NCBI GenBank assembly: GCA_015709495.1
Contig: CP054189.1
Span: 1,612,001-1,676,000, forward strand
Direction: 5' to 3'
DNA length: 64,000 nucleotides
DNA from: Chthonomonadaceae bacterium
GTDB lineage: Bacteria; Armatimonadota; Fimbriimonadia; Fimbriimonadales; Fimbriimonadaceae
Shown: positions 4,762 through 50,955 of the stretch, piece by piece
How positions within the stretch are numbered: position 1 is the first letter of the stretch
Layout of the letters: each line of letters opens with the position of its first letter
Program-made: the position numbers and the translations under genes
The notes under the pieces: model-generated
What the model was told of the DNA's origin: nothing
Databases searched by the model: none
The model's input: the letters and a program-made list of their open reading frames with translations, nothing else

Positions 4762-5892
4762 CTACTCTTTGAAAACCCACATCTCGGCTTCGGCTTCGTC
4801 GGGAACCGGCGACGCCAGGGCAGCCTCAACGCCCTCGCGGAGGTATTCGACGACTTCGGGCGGGAAGTCCTCATCGCGCACTTCGGTGGCGCTGCGGCCC
4901 TCGGGCTGGTATCGGTCGGCTTCCTCTTGAGTGAGAATCCCTTCCTTCACGAGCCTGGCCTTGAACACTGCGATCGGATCTCGGCTCCGGCCCCGTTCGA
5001 CCTCTTCCGCGGGCCGGTACCTCGCCGCGCGGTCGTCGTCATGGTCGCCATGGCCGTAAGCCCGGAAGGTCTTGCACTCGACGATGCTCGGACCCTTTCC
5101 TGCCCGCGCCCACTCGACCGCATCCATCACTTTGTCGTAGACGTCCCAAGCGTCTTGCCCGTCGGCGACGAGACCGGGAATCCCATATCCCTTCGCGCGA
5201 TCCGCGACGTCTTCGGTCGGCACTTCAAGGTGTACGGGAGTTCCATAAGCCCACTGGTTGTTCTCGATGACCGTGATCACCGGCAGCTTATGAACCGCCG
5301 CGAAGTTGATCGCCTCGTGAAAGATCCCTTGCGCCGTGGAACCTTCGCCGTTGTAGGTCACGGCCACAGTGTTCTCGCCGTTCAACCTGTCGGCCAGTAC
5401 GACACCGGCGGCAACGGGAATCGTCCCCGCCAGCATCGAAGTTGAGTGAATGATGCGCTTTTCCTTGCTGCCGATATGCGACCAGTTGTCGCGGGCTCGC
5501 CCTGGAGAGCCGACCTTTCCCCACACCTGGCAGCAAACCTCTTGGATGCTCATGCCCATCCTTCCGGCCCTTCGCAGCCCCCCGCGGGCGTCCTTGAGGA
5601 AGAATGCCGGCATGTCGCGGTGGATCGGGCTGATCCAGTCTCTCGGTTCGAGAGCGTACAGCGAGCCCACGAGAACGGCCTCTTGGTTGTGAGACGAGTA
5701 GAGGGTGCCTCGCAACCGCCCGCGCCGCTTTTCCTTGACTAGACGGACGTCGAAGTACCTCGCCAAGTAGAGGTGCATCAAAATCTCGAGATGCTCGTCC
5801 TTGGTGAGCCGTTGATGGGGCAGGGTAGTCGCTTCTCCCTTTCTCTTACCTTGCTTCTCCGGCGACGTCACTGAAGTGGGTGTGGCGCTCAA
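4762..5892 (-). CDS. 2-oxoacid dehydrogenase E1 component, alpha subunit (first pair)
   Basis: The alpha subunit partner of the beta gene directly downstream. The thiamine-diphosphate motif is present as YNGEGSTAQGIFHEAINFA ending in IENNQWAYGTP, a GDG-to-GEG variant of the usual GDG...NN signature. Other family segments are LYSSHNQEAVLVG and ECKTFRAYGHGDHDDD. The frame is open up to 5958, but the extreme N terminus has no family resemblance. I placed the start at a TTG (5892) preceded by AGGA at about 9 bases. The ATG at 5949 and the TTG at 5958 are alternatives. The GHGDHDDD region and overall length suggest branched-chain or acetoin-type enzymes as well as pyruvate. Confidence 0.83.
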   Translation of the reverse strand: MSATPTSVTSPEKQGKRKGEATTLPHQRLTKDEHLEILMHLYLARYFDVRLVKEKRRGRLRGTLYSSHNQEAVLVGSLYALEPRDWISPIHRDMPAFFLKDARGGLRRAGRMGMSIQEVCCQVWGKVGSPGRARDNWSHIGSKEKRIIHSTSMLAGTIPVAAGVVLADRLNGENTVAVTYNGEGSTAQGIFHEAINFAAVHKLPVITVIENNQWAYGTPVHLEVPTEDVADRAKGYGIPGLVADGQDAWDVYDKVMDAVEWARAGKGPSIVECKTFRAYGHGDHDDDRAARYRPAEEVERGRSRDPIAVFKARLVKEGILTQEEADRYQPEGRSATEVRDEDFPPEVVEYLREGVEAALASPVPDEAEAEMWVFKE

Positions 5893-17819: not shown

Positions 17820-17935
17820 GGGAGGCTGAGGGGTAGTAAGGCTCGGGGCGAGCTTGTTAGAACTCGGCGAAAGCTTGTTACAATAAAAGCGTTGAGCGCC
17901 AATTTCACCCTCACTTACGAAAAGGGCGGCTGGCG

Positions 17936-18001
17936 ATGGGGACTCCGAAAGAAGTCGCGGCGATGGAAGGCAGCTAAGCAGGGTACTACCTGAAAGGAAT
18001 G
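17936..18001 (+). pseudogene. uvrA 3'-end remnant 1
   Basis: Translation gives MGTPKEVAAMEGS, a stop, then AGYYLKGM. This is the UvrA C-terminal tail (normally GTPEEVAxxEGSYTGxYL) with the tryptophan/tyrosine codon changed to TAA. Nothing else of uvrA is attached. It lies just before the broken nucleotidyltransferase fragment. Confidence 0.7.
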
Positions 18002-18100
18002 CTCTTTCGGAAGAATGTCGCACGATAGGCCGAAGACATGGAGAGTGCCAAACGCTCGTCAACTCATCGACGACTATGGCCAGTGGATCATAATCCGAAC

Positions 18101-18547: not shown

Positions 18548-18553
18548 GCACCC

Positions 18554-18706
18554 GGGGCCTCCGGCAACAACCTCAAATCCCTCGACGCGGCGATCCCCGT
18601 CGGCCTGTTCACCTGCGTGACGGGCGTCAGCGGGAGCGGAAAGTCCACGCTGGTGCAAGACACCCTGTATCCCCGGCTGCTCAATGAGCTTTATGGGACG
18701 AGGACG
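18554..18706 (+). pseudogene. uvrA internal remnant with Walker A motif
   Basis: Translation reads [19 protein letters not shown], then [20 protein letters not shown] and [10 protein letters not shown]. This is the start of the second ABC ATPase domain of UvrA, with an intact Walker [10 protein letters not shown]. It is only about 51 residues long and lacks both the rest of the domain and a start. It ends against the DUF4209-like gene. Confidence 0.75.
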
Positions 18707-18714
18707 ACCTGGGC

Positions 18715-20529
18715 TTACCCCTCCGACTCTTTGCCCTCCGTTTTGACGCCATGAAGCAAGAGGAAGATCGAGAGCGCCCACAAGACAATGCAGTCTCCGC
18801 CGTCGAAGGCGCTTGCTGCTTTCAATCCGTGGGCTGTCGCATTTCGGAGGTTGTTTCCGGCCCGTTCGGTTAGCAGGCCCCGAAGTTCAAACGTCAGGTC
18901 GCTACCGAAGACGTCTGCAAACTCCTGTGAAGGAAGAAGTCGCTCCAATGGGTGCTCGTCTTGGCTCCCATCCGGCTTCAGAAACGTGGTTATGATGCCG
19001 TGCTGATTCAGAACGAATCTAAAGGAGTTTTCGAGCTGCGGCAGCAAGAGATGCGTCGAGACAGTAAAGTCGCCATGCAGCCCAGCGCGGAGTGCCCGTT
19101 CAAATAGGGCGATACGATCAGCCGGAACGAAGGAGTTGTCGACCAAGAGCCAGTCAGTGCTCCAGCTCTCCTCGGGGTGCTCCTCTGTGAGGATCTTGCG
19201 GACGTATTCAATCATCCATGCGATCATCGGGCGGGTCATTGCGAGCCTCCGCCACATGTGAGGCTTGAGCACCTCTTCGCTTGGCTCTTCGCCGATAGGC
19301 AATGGAGGAATTACGCAATCCACCTTTCCGTCATCTCGCAGGATCATCCCTTGAAACAAAGTTGCGACCGGAGTCTCGCGCTGTTGATCGAGTACCCCCT
19401 GCCGAACTTCCGCCACCTTAAGTGGCCGAGCTAGCGAGCCGATGAAAGCAACGGCGCCCTCGAATTTCATTCCCTTCGCGGTGTCAAGGTGCTCGATAAG
19501 CTTGGGATCAATGGGCAAAGAGGTCTGAATGGAGCCCATGTTTTCCATCTGTAGTCGGCGTAGTTCGTGCAGCCGCTTAATCAGCTGGTTGCATCGTGCC
19601 TGCATTCCCCCTGCCTGACGCAGAATCTGAACGGCGACTTCTACCCAATGGTCCGCAGCGAGGCCTTTCTGACCGGAAGCAGCCATTGCTTCGCCAAGTG
19701 AAGCGTAAGCTTCCGCCTCATCGATCAGGGCTTGGCGTGCCCCCTGGCTGTCGCCAGCTCGTTGAAGGCACTGCACTTGGCACGCAAAGTAGTCGCCAGC
19801 TCGCATCGGGTCTGGTTGTGCAAGCGCATTGAGTGCGCATTGCTTAGCTATTTCGGCAAGCTCCTTCGGCTCACCAGCTCGGTGATCGATCAGCATCTGG
19901 ATCAGTGAGCGACTGAGGTACAGAGGGTCTGCTGATGCGAGTTCGGATAGCAACTCGTTGGCGTACTCTGAGGCAGCTGCAAACTTGTCCGAGGTTCGGC
20001 CAATGGCCGCACCCAATTGCATCGCCCTATTCAGCCTGTAGAACCCGTTCACCCATTCCTTGGGGTCCATCAAGCGCTTGGCTGAGGCCAGATACGCCGC
20101 TGATGCAATGCGGGCGGCGCTGTGCTCTCGTCGGCGTAGCCACAGGACATCCCCAATTCGGGCACGCATTTCATCGTCTTCGATTTCTGGCAGAATACTT
20201 GCGAGAGGGTCGAGTTGCGGGCCCTCAAAGTCGGTGACCGCTGCCGATCTGCCCGACGGCCCCTGGAACACTGGCTTTAGCGGTTCCGCCAGGTCATCGT
20301 GATCATAGAACACTGAGGAGATGCAGCCGAGCAAGACGTAAACATGCTCCGCTTGCAGCTCATTCGCTTCGTGTGCTGCGGTGGCGGCCTTGAAGAACGC
20401 CCAGGAGTAGTCGTCAATCTTACGATCCTCAACCCCTTCGATCACGCTGCGCCATGGGACGGCTCTGAGGTCAACTTCTGACACTCGCACATCCCGGAGC
20501 TGCAAGCGCTCTGCTTTGTTCTCGGCCAT
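18715..20529 (-). CDS. DUF4209-like protein with C-terminal RX4H motif
   Basis: A 604-residue soluble protein. The C-terminal segment [11 protein letters not shown] (residues 559-569) matches the end of DUF4209 proteins and contains R562-x4-H567, the spacing used by HEPN ribonucleases. It is followed by a hydrophobic helix [15 protein letters not shown]. The N-terminal 300 residues are helical with alanine-rich repeats that look like TPR-type solenoids ([29 protein letters not shown]). Function is not established. A defence or stress RNase role is only an inference from the motif and accessory setting. The start is the ATG at 20529. It is flanked by uvrA debris on its 3' side and by 375 bases of non-coding sequence on its 5' side. 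Confidence 0.6.
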
Positions 20530-20904
20530 TGAATTGTTTTACCAGTTCGAATGGGAAAACGGCTATACTCCTGTCCACATTTCGGGTTCGGAATCGAACG
20601 GCTGGATCGTCCTCCGCGGCGCCTCGGGCAACGCGGTGGCGAGATTCGACTGCCTGTCCTTCGGGCCGGATAAACGAGGGTTCTGAGGTGGCGCTCCTCG
20701 CGGCGGAAGCCTTGCTCCCCAAGCGCGTCATGTCTGCTGCGGCGGTCACTGACCCCGTCTTCCCAAAGCTCCGTGGGCCTCATCGCCGTGGGATGATGGC
20801 GCTTCAATGGAGCATGAGGGTCGACGCATCCGGCTGACTCCGCCCGCTCCGTCCAGAGGGGACTTACGCCTCGCAAATTCGGGTACCCGGACGGTTTGGG
20901 ACTC
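20530..20904. other. Non-coding stretch, nothing recognised
   Basis: About 375 bases between the DUF4209-like gene and a small membrane protein gene. Open frames here are short, lack ribosome-binding sites and resemble no protein I know. It could contain decayed sequence. Confidence 0.4.
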
Positions 20905-45780: not shown

Positions 45781-45939
45781 TTTTGTTTGTGAGCATTCCG
45801 CCAGATAGGGAACAGATTGTTCCGGAGACATAGGTGTCCCTACCGGCGTCAGGGGCTGCTGCCCGAGGCTGCGTAACCCGACTGGGCCTGAGGGCAGATT
45901 CAGGGCCGGTTTGAAATGCGGCGAAATTGTTGGACACCT

Positions 45940-46820
45940 TCATCGCGCCTCCTTTGTTGGGCGAGATTCGAATTGGTCGGGGCTCATGTACTCGAGGCTT
46001 GAGTGCATGCGCTGTTGGTTGTAGATTGCATCGATGAAATGCTCCAGCGATGCTTGGGCTTCGAGGAAGGACGCATAGCGGTTGCGGTCGACTTCTTCGA
46101 GCTTCACGGTCCGAAAGAAGCTTTCCATGTGGGCATTGTCGCGCGGTTTTCCGGGAGCGGAGAAGCTGGTTTTGCCGCCTGCGTCGCGGATGAGCCTCAT
46201 GTATCCGGAGGCGGTGTAGGTCGAGCCTTGGTCGGAGTGGTGAATCCAGCCGAGGTTCGGTTTGCGGGTTTGCAGAGCCTTCAAGAGGCAATCGCGCACC
46301 AGGGCTTCGTCGTTTCGGCGCGAGAGGTGCCAGGCCACCGCTTTGCGCGAATACAGGTCCATGAGGGCGGCCAGGTAGAGCGGCCCCGAGTCGGTGCGCA
46401 CCCGCGTGGTGTCGGCGACCCAGATCTGGTTGGGGCCGAGGCGCTGAGGCCCTTGAGCAGGTTGCCTGCCCGGCGATCCCGAGCGCCCGGCCGGGTCACC
46501 CGCGGCTGCGCGGCCTTCGCGCCATCAGCCCGTGCTCGCGCATGAGCTTGCGAACTGCATACTCGCTGACCGCAACGCCCTCGAGCTGAAGCGCGCGCCG
46601 AACCCGGCGGTAGCCGTAACCCAGGAACAAGACCACCAGCCTCTCGATCGCCAACAGCAACTCGGGACGCGATTTCTGCCTCTGCGGAGCGTACACCAGA
46701 GAGCGAGATATGCCCACCAATTGGGACATGCGGTGAACCGAAGGGACGGAAACTCCGGGCGAAGAGCGCGAATCATGGCTGCCTTTTCTCCCGGAGTTCC
46801 TCCCTTTTTTAGTGCGGCCT
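45940..46820 (-). pseudogene. IS3 OrfB transposase, copy 1, frameshifted
   Basis: A DDE integrase-type transposase. The N-terminal part (VGISRSLVYAPQRQKSRPEL, GYGYRRVRRALQLEGVAV) is read in one frame, while the catalytic part (GPLYLAALMDLYSRKAVAW, HHSDQGSTYTASGYM, NAHMESFFRTVKLEEVDRN) is in another. The break is at a run of four G (minus strand CCCC) near 46432-46435, just before the first catalytic Asp (expected NQIWVADTT). With one more base the frame would be whole. Confidence 0.75.
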
Positions 46821-47081
46821 TCAAAACTCGATCTCTAAAGCCTGACGACCCACGAGCGCTTCCAGCTCCTTCGTACGGTCCAGCACCATCCCCGAACCCG
46901 AACGCCCGGAATTCGGAAACGCATCCGAACCCAAGACCTTGAACTGGTCCACCCAACGATCCAGCATCCCCGGAGACAAACCATGCTCCCGGCACACCTG
47001 AGCCTTTGACCGCAAGCCAGAAACGATCTCCTGGCATATGCCTAACTTGAACTCACGACTGAAACTACGGCGAGACACCAT
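46821..47081 (-). CDS. IS3 OrfA, copy 1, shortened by an indel
   Basis: 86 residues with the helix-turn-helix of IS3-type OrfA: SREFKLGICQEIVSGLRSKA, then VCREHGLSPGMLDRWVDQF and a leucine-zipper-like ELEALVGRQALEIEF. Relative to copy 2 one A is missing in a run near 46824-46827, and the protein stops at EIEF. AGGAG lies upstream of the ATG. Confidence 0.8.
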   Translation of the reverse strand: MVSRRSFSREFKLGICQEIVSGLRSKAQVCREHGLSPGMLDRWVDQFKVLGSDAFPNSGRSGSGMVLDRTKELEALVGRQALEIEF

Positions 47082-47170
47082 CCTATTTTCTCCTGACAGA
47101 ACAAGTAGGTGTCCACAAATTTCGCCGCAGTGCAGTTCGACCGCAACAAGGATGGCGTAGAATTCACTTG

Positions 47171-47383
47171 ATGGTCAAAGCACTCGAGGATGCAATCAAG
47201 AAGGCTCAGGCGCTGCCGGAGGTCGAGCAGGAAGCGCTTGCCGCCATTATTCAGGCGGAAATCACCGACGAGAAAGCTTGGCAGAAGCGGTTCGCCGAGA
47301 CTAAGCCAACGCTCGACAAGCTGGTCGACCGCGCTAAGGAGCAGTATCGCAAGGGCGAATTCGGCGAGTTCCCGGCGAGATGA
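47171..47383 (+). CDS. Antitoxin of a RelE/ParE-type toxin-antitoxin pair
   Basis: 70 residues: VKALEDAIKKAQALPEVEQE, AALAAIIQAE-like helix, then KLVDRAKEQYRKGEFGEFPA. Acidic, helical and small, as in antitoxins that wrap around ParE/RelE toxins. Its stop overlaps the toxin ATG (ATGA). It begins 41 bases after the end of IS copy 1, so the insertion sequence stands where its promoter would be; the IS end may influence expression. Confidence 0.75.
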   Translation: MVKALEDAIKKAQALPEVEQEALAAIIQAEITDEKAWQKRFAETKPTLDKLVDRAKEQYRKGEFGEFPAR

Positions 47384-47649
47384 GGTCGCACATCTCGCGA
47401 GAGTTCCGTGCCGCGCTGAGGGCGCTTCCAAAAGAAGTACAAAGCCAAGCTCGCAAGACATACGAGCTTTGGAAGCAGAATCCGCACCATCCGGGCCTCC
47501 ACTTCGCCAGGCTCAAAGCGCACGATGCCTATTCGGTCCGGATTGGTCTCCACTACCGCGCGATCTGCGTCGAAGTGGAAAAGGACGTTTTCCTTTGGGA
47601 TTGGATCGGCTCTCACAGCGACTACGATAAGCTCGTCGACTCTTTATAG
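47380..47649 (+). CDS. RelE/ParE family toxin
   Basis: 89 residues. [37 protein letters not shown] and [20 protein letters not shown] then [15 protein letters not shown] follow the RelE/ParE fold with its C-terminal strand and WIGxHxxYD end. These toxins cut mRNA on ribosomes or inhibit gyrase; which one cannot be told. Coupled to the antitoxin by a four-base overlap. A uvrA remnant starts about ten bases after the stop. Confidence 0.82.
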
Positions 47650-47658
47650 CCGGCGCTC

Positions 47659-47777
47659 TGCTCCGGGGCAACACGATGATCGTGATCGAGCACAACCTGG
47701 ACGTGATCAAAACTGCGGACTGGGTGATCGACTTGGGACCGGAGGGTGGGAATGGGGGAGGAAAGGTGGTGGTGAAA
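47659..47777 (+). pseudogene. uvrA 3'-end remnant 2, left part (cut by IS copy 2)
   Basis: Translation gives [20 protein letters not shown] then [16 protein letters not shown], the conserved end of the second ATPase domain of UvrA. It starts directly after the toxin gene and is interrupted by the insertion sequence. The continuation MGTPEEVAKVEGSWTGRYL is on the other side (48992-49085). Confidence 0.85.
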
Positions 47778-47800
47778 TGCGGCGAAATTGTTGGACACCT

Positions 47801-48670
47801 TCATCGCGCCTCCTTTGTTGGGCGAGATTCGAATTGGTCGGGGCTCATGTACTCAAGGCTTGAGTGCATGCGCTGTTGGTTGTAGATTGCATCGATGAAA
47901 TGCTCCAGCGATGCTTGGGCTTCGAGGAAGGACGCATAGCGGTTGCGGTCGACTTCTTCGAGCTTCACGGTCCGAAAGAAGCTTTCCATGTGGGCATTGT
48001 CGCGCGGTTTTCCGGGAGCGGAGAAGCTGGTTTTGCCGCCTGCGTCGCGGATGAGCCTCATGTATCCGGAGGCGGTGTAGGTCGAGCCTTGGTCGGAGTG
48101 GTGAATCCAGCCGAGGTTCGGTTTGCGGGTTTGCAGAGCCTTCAAGAGGCAATCGCGCACCAGGGCTTCGTCGTTTCGGCGCGAGAGGTGCCAGGCCACC
48201 GCTTTGCGCGAATACAGGTCCATGAGGGCGGCCAGGTAGAGCGGCCCCGAGTCGGTGCGCACCCGCGTGGTGTCGGCGACCCAGATCTGGTTGGGCCGAG
48301 GCGCTGAGGCCCTTGAGCAGGTTGCCCGCCCGGCGATCCCGAGCGCCCGGCCGGGTCACCCCGCGGCTGCGCGGCCTTCGCGCCATCAGCCCGTGCTCGC
48401 GCATGAGCTTGCGAACTGCATATTCGCTGACCGCAACGCCCTCGAGCTGAAGCGCGCGCCGAACCCGGCGGTAGCCGTAACCCAGGAACAAGACCACCAG
48501 CCTCTCGATCGCCAACAGCAACTCGGGACGCGATTTCTGCCTCTGCGGAGCGTACACCAGAGAGCGAGATATGCCCACCAATTGGGACATGCGGTGAACC
48601 GAAAGGGACGGAAACTCCGGGCGAAGAGCGCGAATCATGGCTGCCTTTTCTCCCGGAGTTCCTCCCTTTT
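47801..48670 (-). pseudogene. IS3 OrfB transposase, copy 2, frameshifted
   Basis: The same DDE transposase as in copy 1. The first half (VGISRSLVYAPQRQKSRPEL, YRRVRRALQLEG) and the second half with the catalytic region (HHSDQGSTYTASGYM, NAHMESFFRTVKLEEV) lie in different frames. Here the G run near 48293-48295 has three bases versus four in copy 1. A five-A run on the minus strand (near 48671) stands where IS3 elements have their A6G frameshift signal. Confidence 0.75.
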
Positions 48671-48943
48671 TAGTGCGGCCTTCAAAAACTCGATCTCTAA
48701 AGCCTGACGACCCACGAGCGCTTCCAGCTCCTTCGTACGGTCCAGCACCATCCCCGAACCCGAACGCCCGGAATTCGGAAACGCATCCGAACCCAAGACC
48801 TTGAACTGGTCCACCCAACGATCCAGCATCCCCGGAGACAAACCATGCTCCCGGCACACCTGAGCCTTTGACCGCAAGCCAGAAACGATCTCCTGGCATA
48901 TGCCTAACTTGAACTCACGACTGAAACTACGGCGAGACACCAT
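48635..48943 (-). CDS. IS3 OrfA, copy 2
   Basis: 102 residues, complete. It has SREFKLGICQEIVSGLRSKA, the helix-turn-helix VCREHGLSPGMLDRWVDQF and ELEALVGRQALEIEFLKAAL. It binds the IS ends and is normally joined to OrfB by ribosomal frameshifting. AGGAG precedes the ATG. Confidence 0.87.
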   Translation of the reverse strand: MVSRRSFSREFKLGICQEIVSGLRSKAQVCREHGLSPGMLDRWVDQFKVLGSDAFPNSGRSGSGMVLDRTKELEALVGRQALEIEFLKAALKREELREKRQP

Positions 48944-48991
48944 CCTATTTTCTCCTGACAGAACAAGTAGGTGTCCACAAATTTCGCCGCA

Positions 48992-49085
48992 GGGCATGGC
49001 GATGGGCACGCCGGAGGAGGTGGCGAAGGTGGAGGGCAGCTGGACGGGGAGATATTTGAGGGGGGTGTTGAGCGCGAAACCGCTC
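48992..49085 (+). pseudogene. uvrA 3'-end remnant 2, right part
   Basis: Reads MGTPEEVAKVEGSWTGRYLR, the very end of UvrA, then runs on into GVLSAKPL. It joins 47659-47777 when IS copy 2 is removed. It ends just before the hicB promoter (CATAAT at 49085-49090). Confidence 0.85.
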
Positions 49086-49096
49086 ATAATGGAGGC

Positions 49097-49315
49097 ATGA
49101 AGTTCCAGGTCGTGTTCTCCTACGACGCGGAGTATAAGGGCTATGTCGCCGACGTGCCGGAGCTTCCCGGCTGCATGAGCCAGGGCAAGACCTTAGACGA
49201 AGCGGTCGAGAACGTGCGCGACGCGATCAGGGGCTATCTACACGTGCTGCAGAAGCACGGAAAGCCGTACATGCCCAAGGATGGCGGCACGTTCGTCGGC
49301 GAGGTCGCCGTCTGA
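49097..49315 (+). CDS. hicB: HicB family antitoxin
   Basis: 72 residues with the HicB core VVFSYDAEYKGYVADVPELP, GCMSQGKTLDEAVENVRDAI and GYLHVLQKHGKP. This partial RNase-H-like fold neutralises HicA. GGAGG is two bases before the ATG at 49097, and CATAAT lies just before that. No C-terminal DNA-binding domain is present. HicA follows after a two-base gap. Confidence 0.88.
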   Translation: MKFQVVFSYDAEYKGYVADVPELPGCMSQGKTLDEAVENVRDAIRGYLHVLQKHGKPYMPKDGGTFVGEVAV

Positions 49316-49316
49316 G

Positions 49317-49544
49317 GTGGGCAAACTCTCGGGCATTTCCGGGAAGCAAGCCGTGAAGGCGTTCGAGCACTTCGGCTATAAGCTCGACCATCAGACCGGG
49401 AGCCACATGATCCTTTACCATCCCGAGAAGCCGCCGCTGTCCGTGCCAAACCACCGCGAGCTCGCGCCTGGGCTGTTGCGCGGACTGCTGCGGAAATCCG
49501 AAATCGATGTGGATGCGTTCTTGCGCGTTGCCAAAAAGAGCTGA
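49317..49544 (+). CDS. hicA: HicA family mRNA-interferase toxin
   Basis: 75 residues. The dsRBD-like HicA fold is seen in LSGISGKQAVKAFEHFGYKL, then DHQTGSHMILYHPEKPPLSV with the catalytic histidine in GSHMIL, and the conserved ending VPNHRELAPGLLRGLLRKSE and ID. HicA cleaves mRNA and is held inactive by HicB. The GTG at 49317 gives the expected start. A uvrA remnant begins two bases after its stop. Confidence 0.88.
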   Translation: MGKLSGISGKQAVKAFEHFGYKLDHQTGSHMILYHPEKPPLSVPNHRELAPGLLRGLLRKSEIDVDAFLRVAKKS

Positions 49545-49593
49545 ACCCTCGACCGAGCCACACTTCGAGGACGTCAAGAACCTGCTCGGGGTC

Positions 49594-49616
49594 CCCGACG
49601 AATCGGGATCTTCGAC
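49594..49616. repeat. Short palindromic insert 1 in uvrA remnant 3
   Basis: Twenty-three bases starting CCCGACGAATCGGGATCT; CCCGA pairs with TCGGG. It lies exactly between the codons for GV and LHRL of UvrA. Confidence 0.6.
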
Positions 49617-49679
49617 CTGCACCGCCTGGTGGACCAGGGGAACACGATGATCGTGATCGCGCACAACCTGGACGTGATT

Positions 49680-49711
49680 CCCGAAGGTCGGGATCTCCGC
49701 TTCGCTCCGAC
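49680..49711. repeat. Short palindromic insert 2 in uvrA remnant 3
   Basis: Thirty-two bases starting CCCGAAGGTCGGGATCTCCG and ending CGAC, as insert 1 does. CCCGA pairs with TCGGG. It lies exactly between the codons for NLDVI and KTAAW. Confidence 0.6.
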
Positions 49712-49747
49712 AAAACGGCGGCCTGGGTGATTGACCTCGGCCCGGAT

Positions 49748-49808
49748 CTCCCTCCCCAACCCCTCCCTCATTTTCCGCCGGAGAGAAAAAACAAGGGAGG
49801 GGCTCGAC
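49748..49808. repeat. Palindromic insert 3 in uvrA remnant 3
   Basis: Sixty-one bases with CCCCTCCCT pairing perfectly to AGGGAGGGG across a 21-base loop, and ending CGAC. It replaces the glycine-rich loop of UvrA. A similar pyrimidine/purine hairpin stands after sepF (14886-14917). Confidence 0.6.
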
Positions 49809-49972
49809 GGCGTTAACGTCGTGGCGATGGGGACTCCGGAAGAGGTGGCCGAGGTGGAAGGCAGCTGGACGGGGAAGTATTGGAAGGAAGCTGGACAGGG
49901 AGGCACTTAAGGGGGTGTTGACCCGGGCATAAGGCCGCGTCACTTCCACCCTATTCCTCGCTGCAGGTCCAG

Positions 49973-50353
49973 CTACTGTCCATTCTTGCCTTGGACAATC
50001 GCGCAGACCGCCCCGGCGGGGTCTTTGACGATCGCATACCCGCCCTCTTCCGGCGCCCTGGGCCCGTGGATGACTTCGCCGCCAAGCTCGACGCAACGCG
50101 CGAGGCTGGCGGCCAAGTCGGCGACTTGGACGTACATCATCCATTGCGGCGGTATGCCAGCGTTCAGCCCGCGAGCGTGGCAGACTCCGGCCACTGTAGC
50201 GCCCGACTCGGGGTCCTTCATGTCGAAGTCGCAGTAAGACTCCATGTCATGTGGCTCGGCAATCCACCCCATCACTGACGCATAGAAGTCCCGGAGCTGC
50301 TCTGCATCGGAAACCGTGAGGTCGTGCCAAATGATCGCGCCCGCCTTGTCCAT
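49973..50353 (-). CDS. VOC (glyoxalase/bleomycin resistance) superfamily protein
   Basis: 126 residues. It has the betaalphabetabetabeta pattern of one VOC unit pair: IIWHDLTVSDAEQLRDFYAS, VMGWIAEPHDM and MMYVQVADLAASLARCVELG, then GPRAPEEGGYAIVKDPAGAV. Potential metal ligands are H10 and a C-terminal acidic residue. The role could be glyoxalase-like or dioxygenase-like; no partner tells which. It closes the accessory island next to an IS remnant. Confidence 0.8.
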   Translation of the reverse strand: MDKAGAIIWHDLTVSDAEQLRDFYASVMGWIAEPHDMESYCDFDMKDPESGATVAGVCHARGLNAGIPPQWMMYVQVADLAASLARCVELGGEVIHGPRAPEEGGYAIVKDPAGAVCAIVQGKNGQ

Positions 50354-50510: not shown

Positions 50511-50825
50511 GGGTTCAGGTGGGCATGGAGAGCACGAGCGTCTATTCATGGCACCCGAGTTCTGCTTCCCACCTCGGCCACCGGCCGTTCCGTCGCTGCA
50601 CCCTTGGAATATCTTCCCAGTCCTCTCCAGCGGGGCTCGGGGGAACCTGTTGTGGCTATCGGCCCTAGACATGGCGCTCCTACGGAGCTAGGGAAACCGT
50701 TGCGAGGAGCGCCTGCGACCAATCCCTCTGACGACTGACAAGGTCTGGACAGGCGCGCGGTCTCGCGTCCCGGTGCCGTCTACGAGTCGGACGCGAGCAC
50801 CCCGGAGAGAATCCCTCTCGCCTGG

Positions 50826-50853
50826 CCCCCTCTCGCTCGGACGGGCGAGGGGG
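50826..50853. repeat. GC-rich hairpin
   Basis: CCCC-CTCGC on the left pairs with GCGAG-GGGG on the right, followed by GGAAATTCCCTCG. It resembles the hairpins at 14886 and in insert 3 of the uvrA remnant in form only. Confidence 0.45.
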
Positions 50854-50955
50854 AAATTCCCTCGTTTTTCCCGGCCTGCTCTGCGAGTCAGACCGGGGCA
50901 CCCGGCCGGCCCCTGGAGCGGCCACGAAATCGACGCCGTTCCCTCCGGACGGCCG

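Follow-up and report, generated by a model that had tools for sequence, protein, structure and literature searches.

Orphan rhs-CT and cdiA-CT arrays consist of partial copies of variable length placed downstream of an intact gene, each with a toxin/immunity cassette, and homologous recombination through the shared segment has been proposed for them (PMC3150448, PMC3967940). Insertion with long target duplication has been described for restriction-modification (RM) systems (Nobusato 2000; Furuta 2010, as cited in PMC3874152, PMC3031569), and the streptococcal islands SpnCI and SmiCI lie at the uvrA promoter, where they use an integrase and a single attachment site within full-length uvrA (PMC4129442). 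In core defence hotspots, systems gather at one conserved chromosomal position and vary between strains with no obvious single mobilising element; the building and exchange of defence islands lacking such an element has been described as open (PMC10250203). In this work, we analysed a stretch of 64,000 nucleotides (the window, C1:1612001-1676000) from the single-contig 2.90-Mb genome of a Chthonomonadaceae bacterium (G000; placed in the Fimbriimonadaceae, phylum Armatimonadota), in which two predicted toxin-antitoxin (TA) pairs alternate with tails of uvrA-C, a stand-alone gene for the C half of a split UvrA. The explanation that best accounts for the data, and which we consider rather likely, is that this array is one of five sites where homology to uvrA-C, probably via homologous recombination, allows TA and defence cassettes to be swapped.

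The uvrA-C pieces and their cassettes

The genome was compared with that of a sister strain of the same species (G094, likewise a single contig), a member of the same genus (G001), a member of another genus (G015) and its congener (G099), and a member of a different family (G044), sequence being taken for the stretches that bear on uvrA-C. About 20 uvrA-C DNA pieces were found in G000 at five sites, labelled S1 (2.291-2.307 Mb, around the intact uvrA-C), S2 (window 17.9-20.6 kb), S3 (the array under study), S4 (1.761-1.762 Mb) and S5 (2.808 Mb); positions within pieces are given on a 1034-base uvrA-C query. No uvrA-N pieces were found in G000, where an 11-kb control query comprising uvrA-N and its neighbours matched only IS3 copies and short dispersed repeats. 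The uvrA-C pieces are today 40-670 bp long and 70-97% identical, and contain stops, deletions and short inserts; the 3' pieces (tails) mostly extend to the uvrA stop, and the 5' pieces (heads) begin at the same promoter box.

At S3, the order is IS3 copy A, ParE_like TA pair, uvrA-C tail 1 split by IS3 copy B, HicBA pair, and uvrA-C tail 2 (Table 1), in agreement with the modules and coordinates of the initial annotation. This had placed uvrA sequence within 2-10 bases of each toxin stop, which is roughly right: uvrA homology begins 13 bp past the ParE_like stop codon and overlaps that of HicA. The homology of the tails to uvrA was also correctly recognised, although their source is the stand-alone uvrA-C gene and not a full-length uvrA.

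Genome-wide, ParE_like (PF24732) toxins number one in G000 and two in G094, and intact HicA two in G000 and none in G094, whose sole match carries stops. Four of these five intact toxin genes sit 0-34 bp from a uvrA-C piece detected by BLAST; the fifth is 172 bp from such a piece, and its stop codon falls in uvrA sequence if the head is read through short inserts. A 250-bp gene placed at random would fall within 50 bp of a uvrA-C piece with a probability of about 0.003, and the adjacency of toxin genes and uvrA-C exceeds chance; the five toxins form three clusters and are therefore not fully independent of one another.

The remaining sites hold a wider cargo, as most neighbours of uvrA-C pieces are TA, RM, Thoeris or other predicted defence genes. 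From left to right, S1 of G000 comprises head 1, HicAB, a TPR gene, an insertion sequence (IS), head 2, a CMD/MerT/ArsR operon and the intact uvrA-C, followed by an Xre/M78 pair, a tail, an antiporter, a tail, Thoeris ThsA/ThsB, a wHTH plus nucleotidyltransferase-like gene, a tail and a DinB-like gene; the nucleotidyltransferase-like gene had no Pfam hit, its AbiEii-like label coming from inspection only. One gene of no assigned function and FRG/PDC-S15 are found at S4, and a type IIG RM at S5, about 1.2 kb from the piece with a TPR gene between. In G094, the cassettes are CHAT/ECF sigma plus a type II methyltransferase at S1, two ParE_like TA pairs at S2, type II RM genes at S4 and a BsobI-type RM at S5. 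Defence is the main cargo in these two strains, and not the sole cargo overall.

The initial annotation had proposed a comparison with related genomes lacking the modules. S3 is absent from G094, where the retained flanks correspond to the window up to 45911 and from 50554 on. At S1, the flanks are 94-96% identical between strains and the enclosed cargo is wholly different, and each strain has a single intact uvrA-C with 5' pieces on its upstream side and 3' pieces on its downstream side. Site S2 of G094 reads PDC-S39 remnant, head a, TA (minus strand), head b, TA (plus strand), head c, and in G000 it has one uvrA-C start piece, flanked on the left as head a is and on the right as head c is; therefore, the strains differ there by a deletion or insertion jointed inside a uvrA repeat of ~70 bp. 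The middle of the G000 piece is identical to neither head a nor head c, so that a later change occurred or a third copy was involved.

In G000, the TIGR00630 profile matches an N half of UvrA (1-616) at 1.246 Mb (C1:1245816-1247690) and a C half (605-924) at 2.297 Mb (2296717-2297679). A split at residue 609/610, between the ATPase modules, is the rule in Fimbriimonadaceae, some members having a full-length protein even within one genus, and in a second family of the order UvrA is split at about 241/242. Since ordinary genes separate the halves in relatives where both are close together, the split is old, and TA insertion as its cause was rejected. The family-wide split between the two ATPase modules appears undescribed in the open-access literature searched, and no paper on uvrA or TA in Fimbriimonadaceae was found in the one open-access library consulted, which is weak evidence of novelty.

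Proposed exchange through uvrA-C and rival explanations

The intact uvrA-C genes of G000, G094, G001 and G015 are mutually 87-90% identical, that of G099 reaching 77%. For uvrA-N, which follows a normal pattern, the synonymous divergence (dS) from G000 is 0.10 within the species (G094) and 1.46-1.47 to G001 and G015, and in uvrA-C codons 130-180 it is 0.03 (G094), 0.00 (G001) and 0.13 (G015); in two 3' windows of uvrA-C, dS goes from 0.87 to saturated, even within the species. Control pairs without arrays usually displayed only a modestly lower value in the same middle window than in the rest, with a largest drop of about three-fold (G012-G092). Furthermore, G044 has, besides its own full-length intact uvrA, a uvrA-C head that shares 95.8% identity with G000 across 448 bp; an antiporter gene lies between this head and a uvrA-C tail. 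Judged by these sequence comparisons, uvrA-C alleles are shown to be mosaic and to move between species and genera, and they probably also move between families. Head 2 and the S2 heads, with ~72% DNA and 81% protein identity to the intact copy, are xenologs; some other pieces are 81-93% identical to intact alleles.

According to the proposed mechanism, incoming DNA made of a cassette plus uvrA-C would integrate by homologous recombination in resident uvrA-C sequence, and only products retaining one intact uvrA-C would survive, so that the displaced head would stay upstream or the displaced tail downstream. The leftover pieces would then serve as short direct repeats that allow neighbouring cassettes to be deleted, swapped or re-inserted, and TA/RM addiction, the benefit of defence and the need for uvrA-C would make the arrays hard to lose. 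The S3 array would be of the downstream (tail) type, now located far from the intact gene. We infer that the process depends on RecA, that selection maintains an intact uvrA-C and that addiction stabilises the arrays. A more specific version, which we regard as possible but doubtful, is that of cargo plus a rescue copy: cassettes would travel with a complete uvrA-C that provides both the homology for invasion and the functional replacement of the broken gene, so that neither the cargo (by addiction) nor the newcomer uvrA-C (by repair) would be easily lost. If this is true, half of a housekeeping gene would have become a common currency for exchanging defence cassettes across genera.

Several observations weigh against exchange through uvrA-C. 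The pieces are short and diverged, and thus poor RecA substrates now; cassette genes end 0-40 bp from them, closer than would be expected from random homologous exchange unless trimming or selection followed; and sites S2-S5 lie hundreds of kb from the intact gene, requiring an extra ectopic step (illegitimate or IS-aided). Internal pieces (S4, S5 and 1414516 in G094) fall outside the head/tail rule, and several G001 cassettes are not defence, uvrA-C tails also separating genes of YCII, SnoaL and lipocalin type there. Recombination, moreover, is read from its sequence products, not seen directly.

The order of piece, cassette and intact gene and the variable lengths of the pieces would also fit the entry of TA and RM cassettes, both of which are present as cargo, into uvrA-C with duplication of a long and variable stretch of target, leaving head, cassette and intact gene or intact gene, cassette and tail, as has been proposed for RM systems with long variable duplications (PMC3874152, PMC3031569). 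However, head 2 and the S2 heads are xenologs and not duplicates of the local gene, and the allele mosaic across species indicates exchange and not local duplication alone; we consider such an origin unlikely. The stops, deletions and short inserts within pieces, and the genes sitting tightly against them, could instead reflect passive decay, in which redundant uvrA-C copies and other DNA erode in a mobile and recombination-prone region until only functional genes (TA/defence genes and one uvrA-C) remain, producing tight borders with no role of uvrA-C in exchange. Such decay is improbable, as it leaves unexplained why uvrA-C alone is fragmented, the polarity of heads upstream and tails downstream, and the cross-genus identity of the middle of the gene. 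That assembly joined contigs at uvrA repeats, which the initial annotation had named as a danger, is hardly credible: repeats can mislead assembly and the IS3 copies have homopolymer-like indels, but two complete single-contig genomes of the same species and independent genera display the same architecture, and the target duplication of IS3 copy B is clean.

Integrative elements that attach site-specifically at the 5' or 3' terminus of uvrA-C, each rebuilding the gene end whose earlier version it displaces, would agree with 3' pieces that mostly reach the uvrA stop and 5' pieces that start at the same promoter box, and the uvrA promoter is where chromosomal islands of streptococci integrate (PMC4129442). 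Conversely, inner piece ends differ by hundreds of bp, both gene ends are used, some cassettes are single genes, and among the island proteins scanned (part of the open reading frames) there were only IS transposases and no integrase. Three heads end within about 20 bp (YGTRTTWA...) and another about 290 bp further, and tails begin at seven or more different positions; a fixed insertion site was rejected on these grounds, and no attachment core common to all junctions was found. A site-specific recombinase is disfavoured because the inner breakpoints are variable, and we deem these elements very improbable. Phage carriage was rejected as well, no relative of the toxin being present in viral contigs, and uvrA relatives in viral contigs and plasmids being only 67-75% alike. 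The initial annotation had proposed that, in place of random accumulation, a shared uvrA segment was the target of repeated insertions or the medium of exchange, and this gains support from several sites, a second strain and other genera; its site-specific version does not agree with the variable head ends and tail starts. For exact breakpoints, the contrary outcome that it had foreseen, different uvrA positions with microhomology only, is what was found, and this does not extend to exchange based on homology.

Features of the array and of site S2

Table 1. Features of the S3 array and of site S2, in window positions
Feature	Position	Strand	Remarks
S2 small uvrA-C tail relic	17931..18003	+	
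S2 uvrA-C head z	18553..18714	+	ends at ...GGACGAGGACGACCTGGGC, adjoining end of next cassette
S2 cassette, 604-aa candidate defence gene	18715..20529	-	PADLOC PDC-S39; DUF7380/DUF4209
S2 uvrA-C promoter/start piece	20559..20640	+	left flank matches G094 head a, right flank G094 head c
IS3-family copy A	45912..47134	-	3-bp target duplication GTT; left edge of strain-specific block in alignment with G094
TA1 putative antitoxin, 71 aa	47171..47383	+	TAGAAT box 7-12 bp upstream of ATG
TA1 ParE_like toxin (RelE/ParE superfamily)	47380..47649	+	PF24732, E 2.5e-10
uvrA-C tail 1, 5' part	47663..47772	+	query positions 845-954
IS3-family copy B inside tail 1	47773..48996	-	TGG target duplication; full length; transposase frame broken by indels
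uvrA-C tail 1, 3' part	48997..49073	+	reaches uvrA stop-codon region
HicB-like antitoxin	49097..49315	+	PF15919, E 2e-9
HicA toxin	49317..49544	+	PF07927, E 5e-16; stop codon overlaps start of uvrA-C tail 2
uvrA-C tail 2, four pieces	49543-49592, 49617-49678, 49711-49746, 49815-49915	+	three short inserts between
Glyoxalase/VOC gene	49973..50353	-	right part of block absent from G094

In the first module, an upstream 71-aa antitoxin gene overlaps the toxin gene, as in a predicted ParE/RelE-type pair, the putative antitoxin matching no Pfam family above cut-off; the adjacent HicA and HicB-like domains predict a HicAB pair. A -10-like box lies very near the ATG of uvrA-C copies and TA genes, e.g. 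CTATACTCCTGTCCACATG and TAGAATTCACTTGATG (L173:4755-4836, 5030-5550; window 47155-47173), which suggests leaderless transcripts for both. Two features went beyond the initial annotation, namely a second near-identical IS3 (copy A) and the interruption of tail 2 by three short inserts. Short palindromic inserts (core TCGGGATCTCCGCTTCGCTCCGAC, with TCCCGA...TCGGGA variants) occur within uvrA relics at window positions 49593-49616 and 49679-49711 and at L173:4119-4290, several of them inside one 100-bp relic, and look like a mobile mini-repeat. The stretch 49688-49894 of tail 2, together with an insert that it contains, has one related copy in the G001 array, and parts of it have two more there, at 76-78%. 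A dispersed noncoding repeat family (CCCCCTGGCCCCCTCTCCCTCGGACGGGCGAGGGGG...) is located at 50767-50906 and elsewhere, with many sites in G094. Furthermore, members of a family of small genes or fragments with the ending ...IVSATAQP lie close to uvrA-C pieces of three genomes (L036:15009-15209; L083:2520-2720; L089:4093-5058). In both strains, a ~57-bp tandem repeat lies at the left edge of S1 (C1:2290921-2291182), and an inverted array related to it is found at about 2313800-2314109.

The IS3 copies, assigned to the family by sequence resemblance, have an orfA/orfB-type transposase, TG...CA ends with inverted repeats and 3-bp target duplications, and at least nine near-identical IS3-type copies are present in the G000 genome (among them both window copies and L038:3664-4893). 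The IS3 of the first tail had been described as intact; it is full length with a clean duplication, but comparison with the intact copy reveals indels in its transposase frame. Indels disrupt the frame in both window copies, possibly as sequencing errors in homopolymers. A composite IS3 transposon carrying TA1 was rejected, each IS3 having its own clean target duplication, and is further countered by the syntenic flank, which runs a few bases past copy A; for both reasons IS3 looks like a later arrival.

Comparison with described systems

As in orphan rhs/cdiA arrays, the partial copies are homologous to one intact gene and each is linked to a cassette. In rhs/cdiA, however, the cassette joins the anchor protein, whereas here cassettes are independent TA, RM or defence genes, one half of a housekeeping repair gene serves as the anchor, and heads occur as well as tails. 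As in RM insertions with long target duplication, addiction-type genes lie between long variable direct repeats of a target whose intact copy is kept; compared with the insertions so described, uvrA-C arrays have a broader cargo, reuse the same target, and contain several xenologous or mosaic repeats. The arrays belong to neither of these classes, since no cassette is a domain of the anchor protein and a number of the repeats are xenologs. Insertion at uvrA is shared with SpnCI/SmiCI, in contrast to which no integrase was seen among the scanned proteins and no fixed site was found. Cassettes separated by repeats also recall integron arrays, and G001 has several short same-strand genes between uvrA-C tails, but the repeats here are variable-length fragments of a coding gene; neither IntI nor attC was noticed, no dedicated search having been made.

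The uvrA-C arrays do count as a core defence hotspot (PMC10250203), one with an unusually legible history. In contrast to such hotspots, copies of the flanking gene itself stand between cassettes and at additional sites, which hints at the way exchange works: the scars are still readable, nearly all cassette borders being marked by the split repair gene, which also shows recombination between genera. If exchange through uvrA-C is correct, the pieces would provide a handle on unrecognised defence genes in Armatimonadota and a means of testing cassette exchange driven by homology. Taken together, we judge the arrays to be a variant of known processes, in which the use of half of a housekeeping gene as the exchange segment is new.

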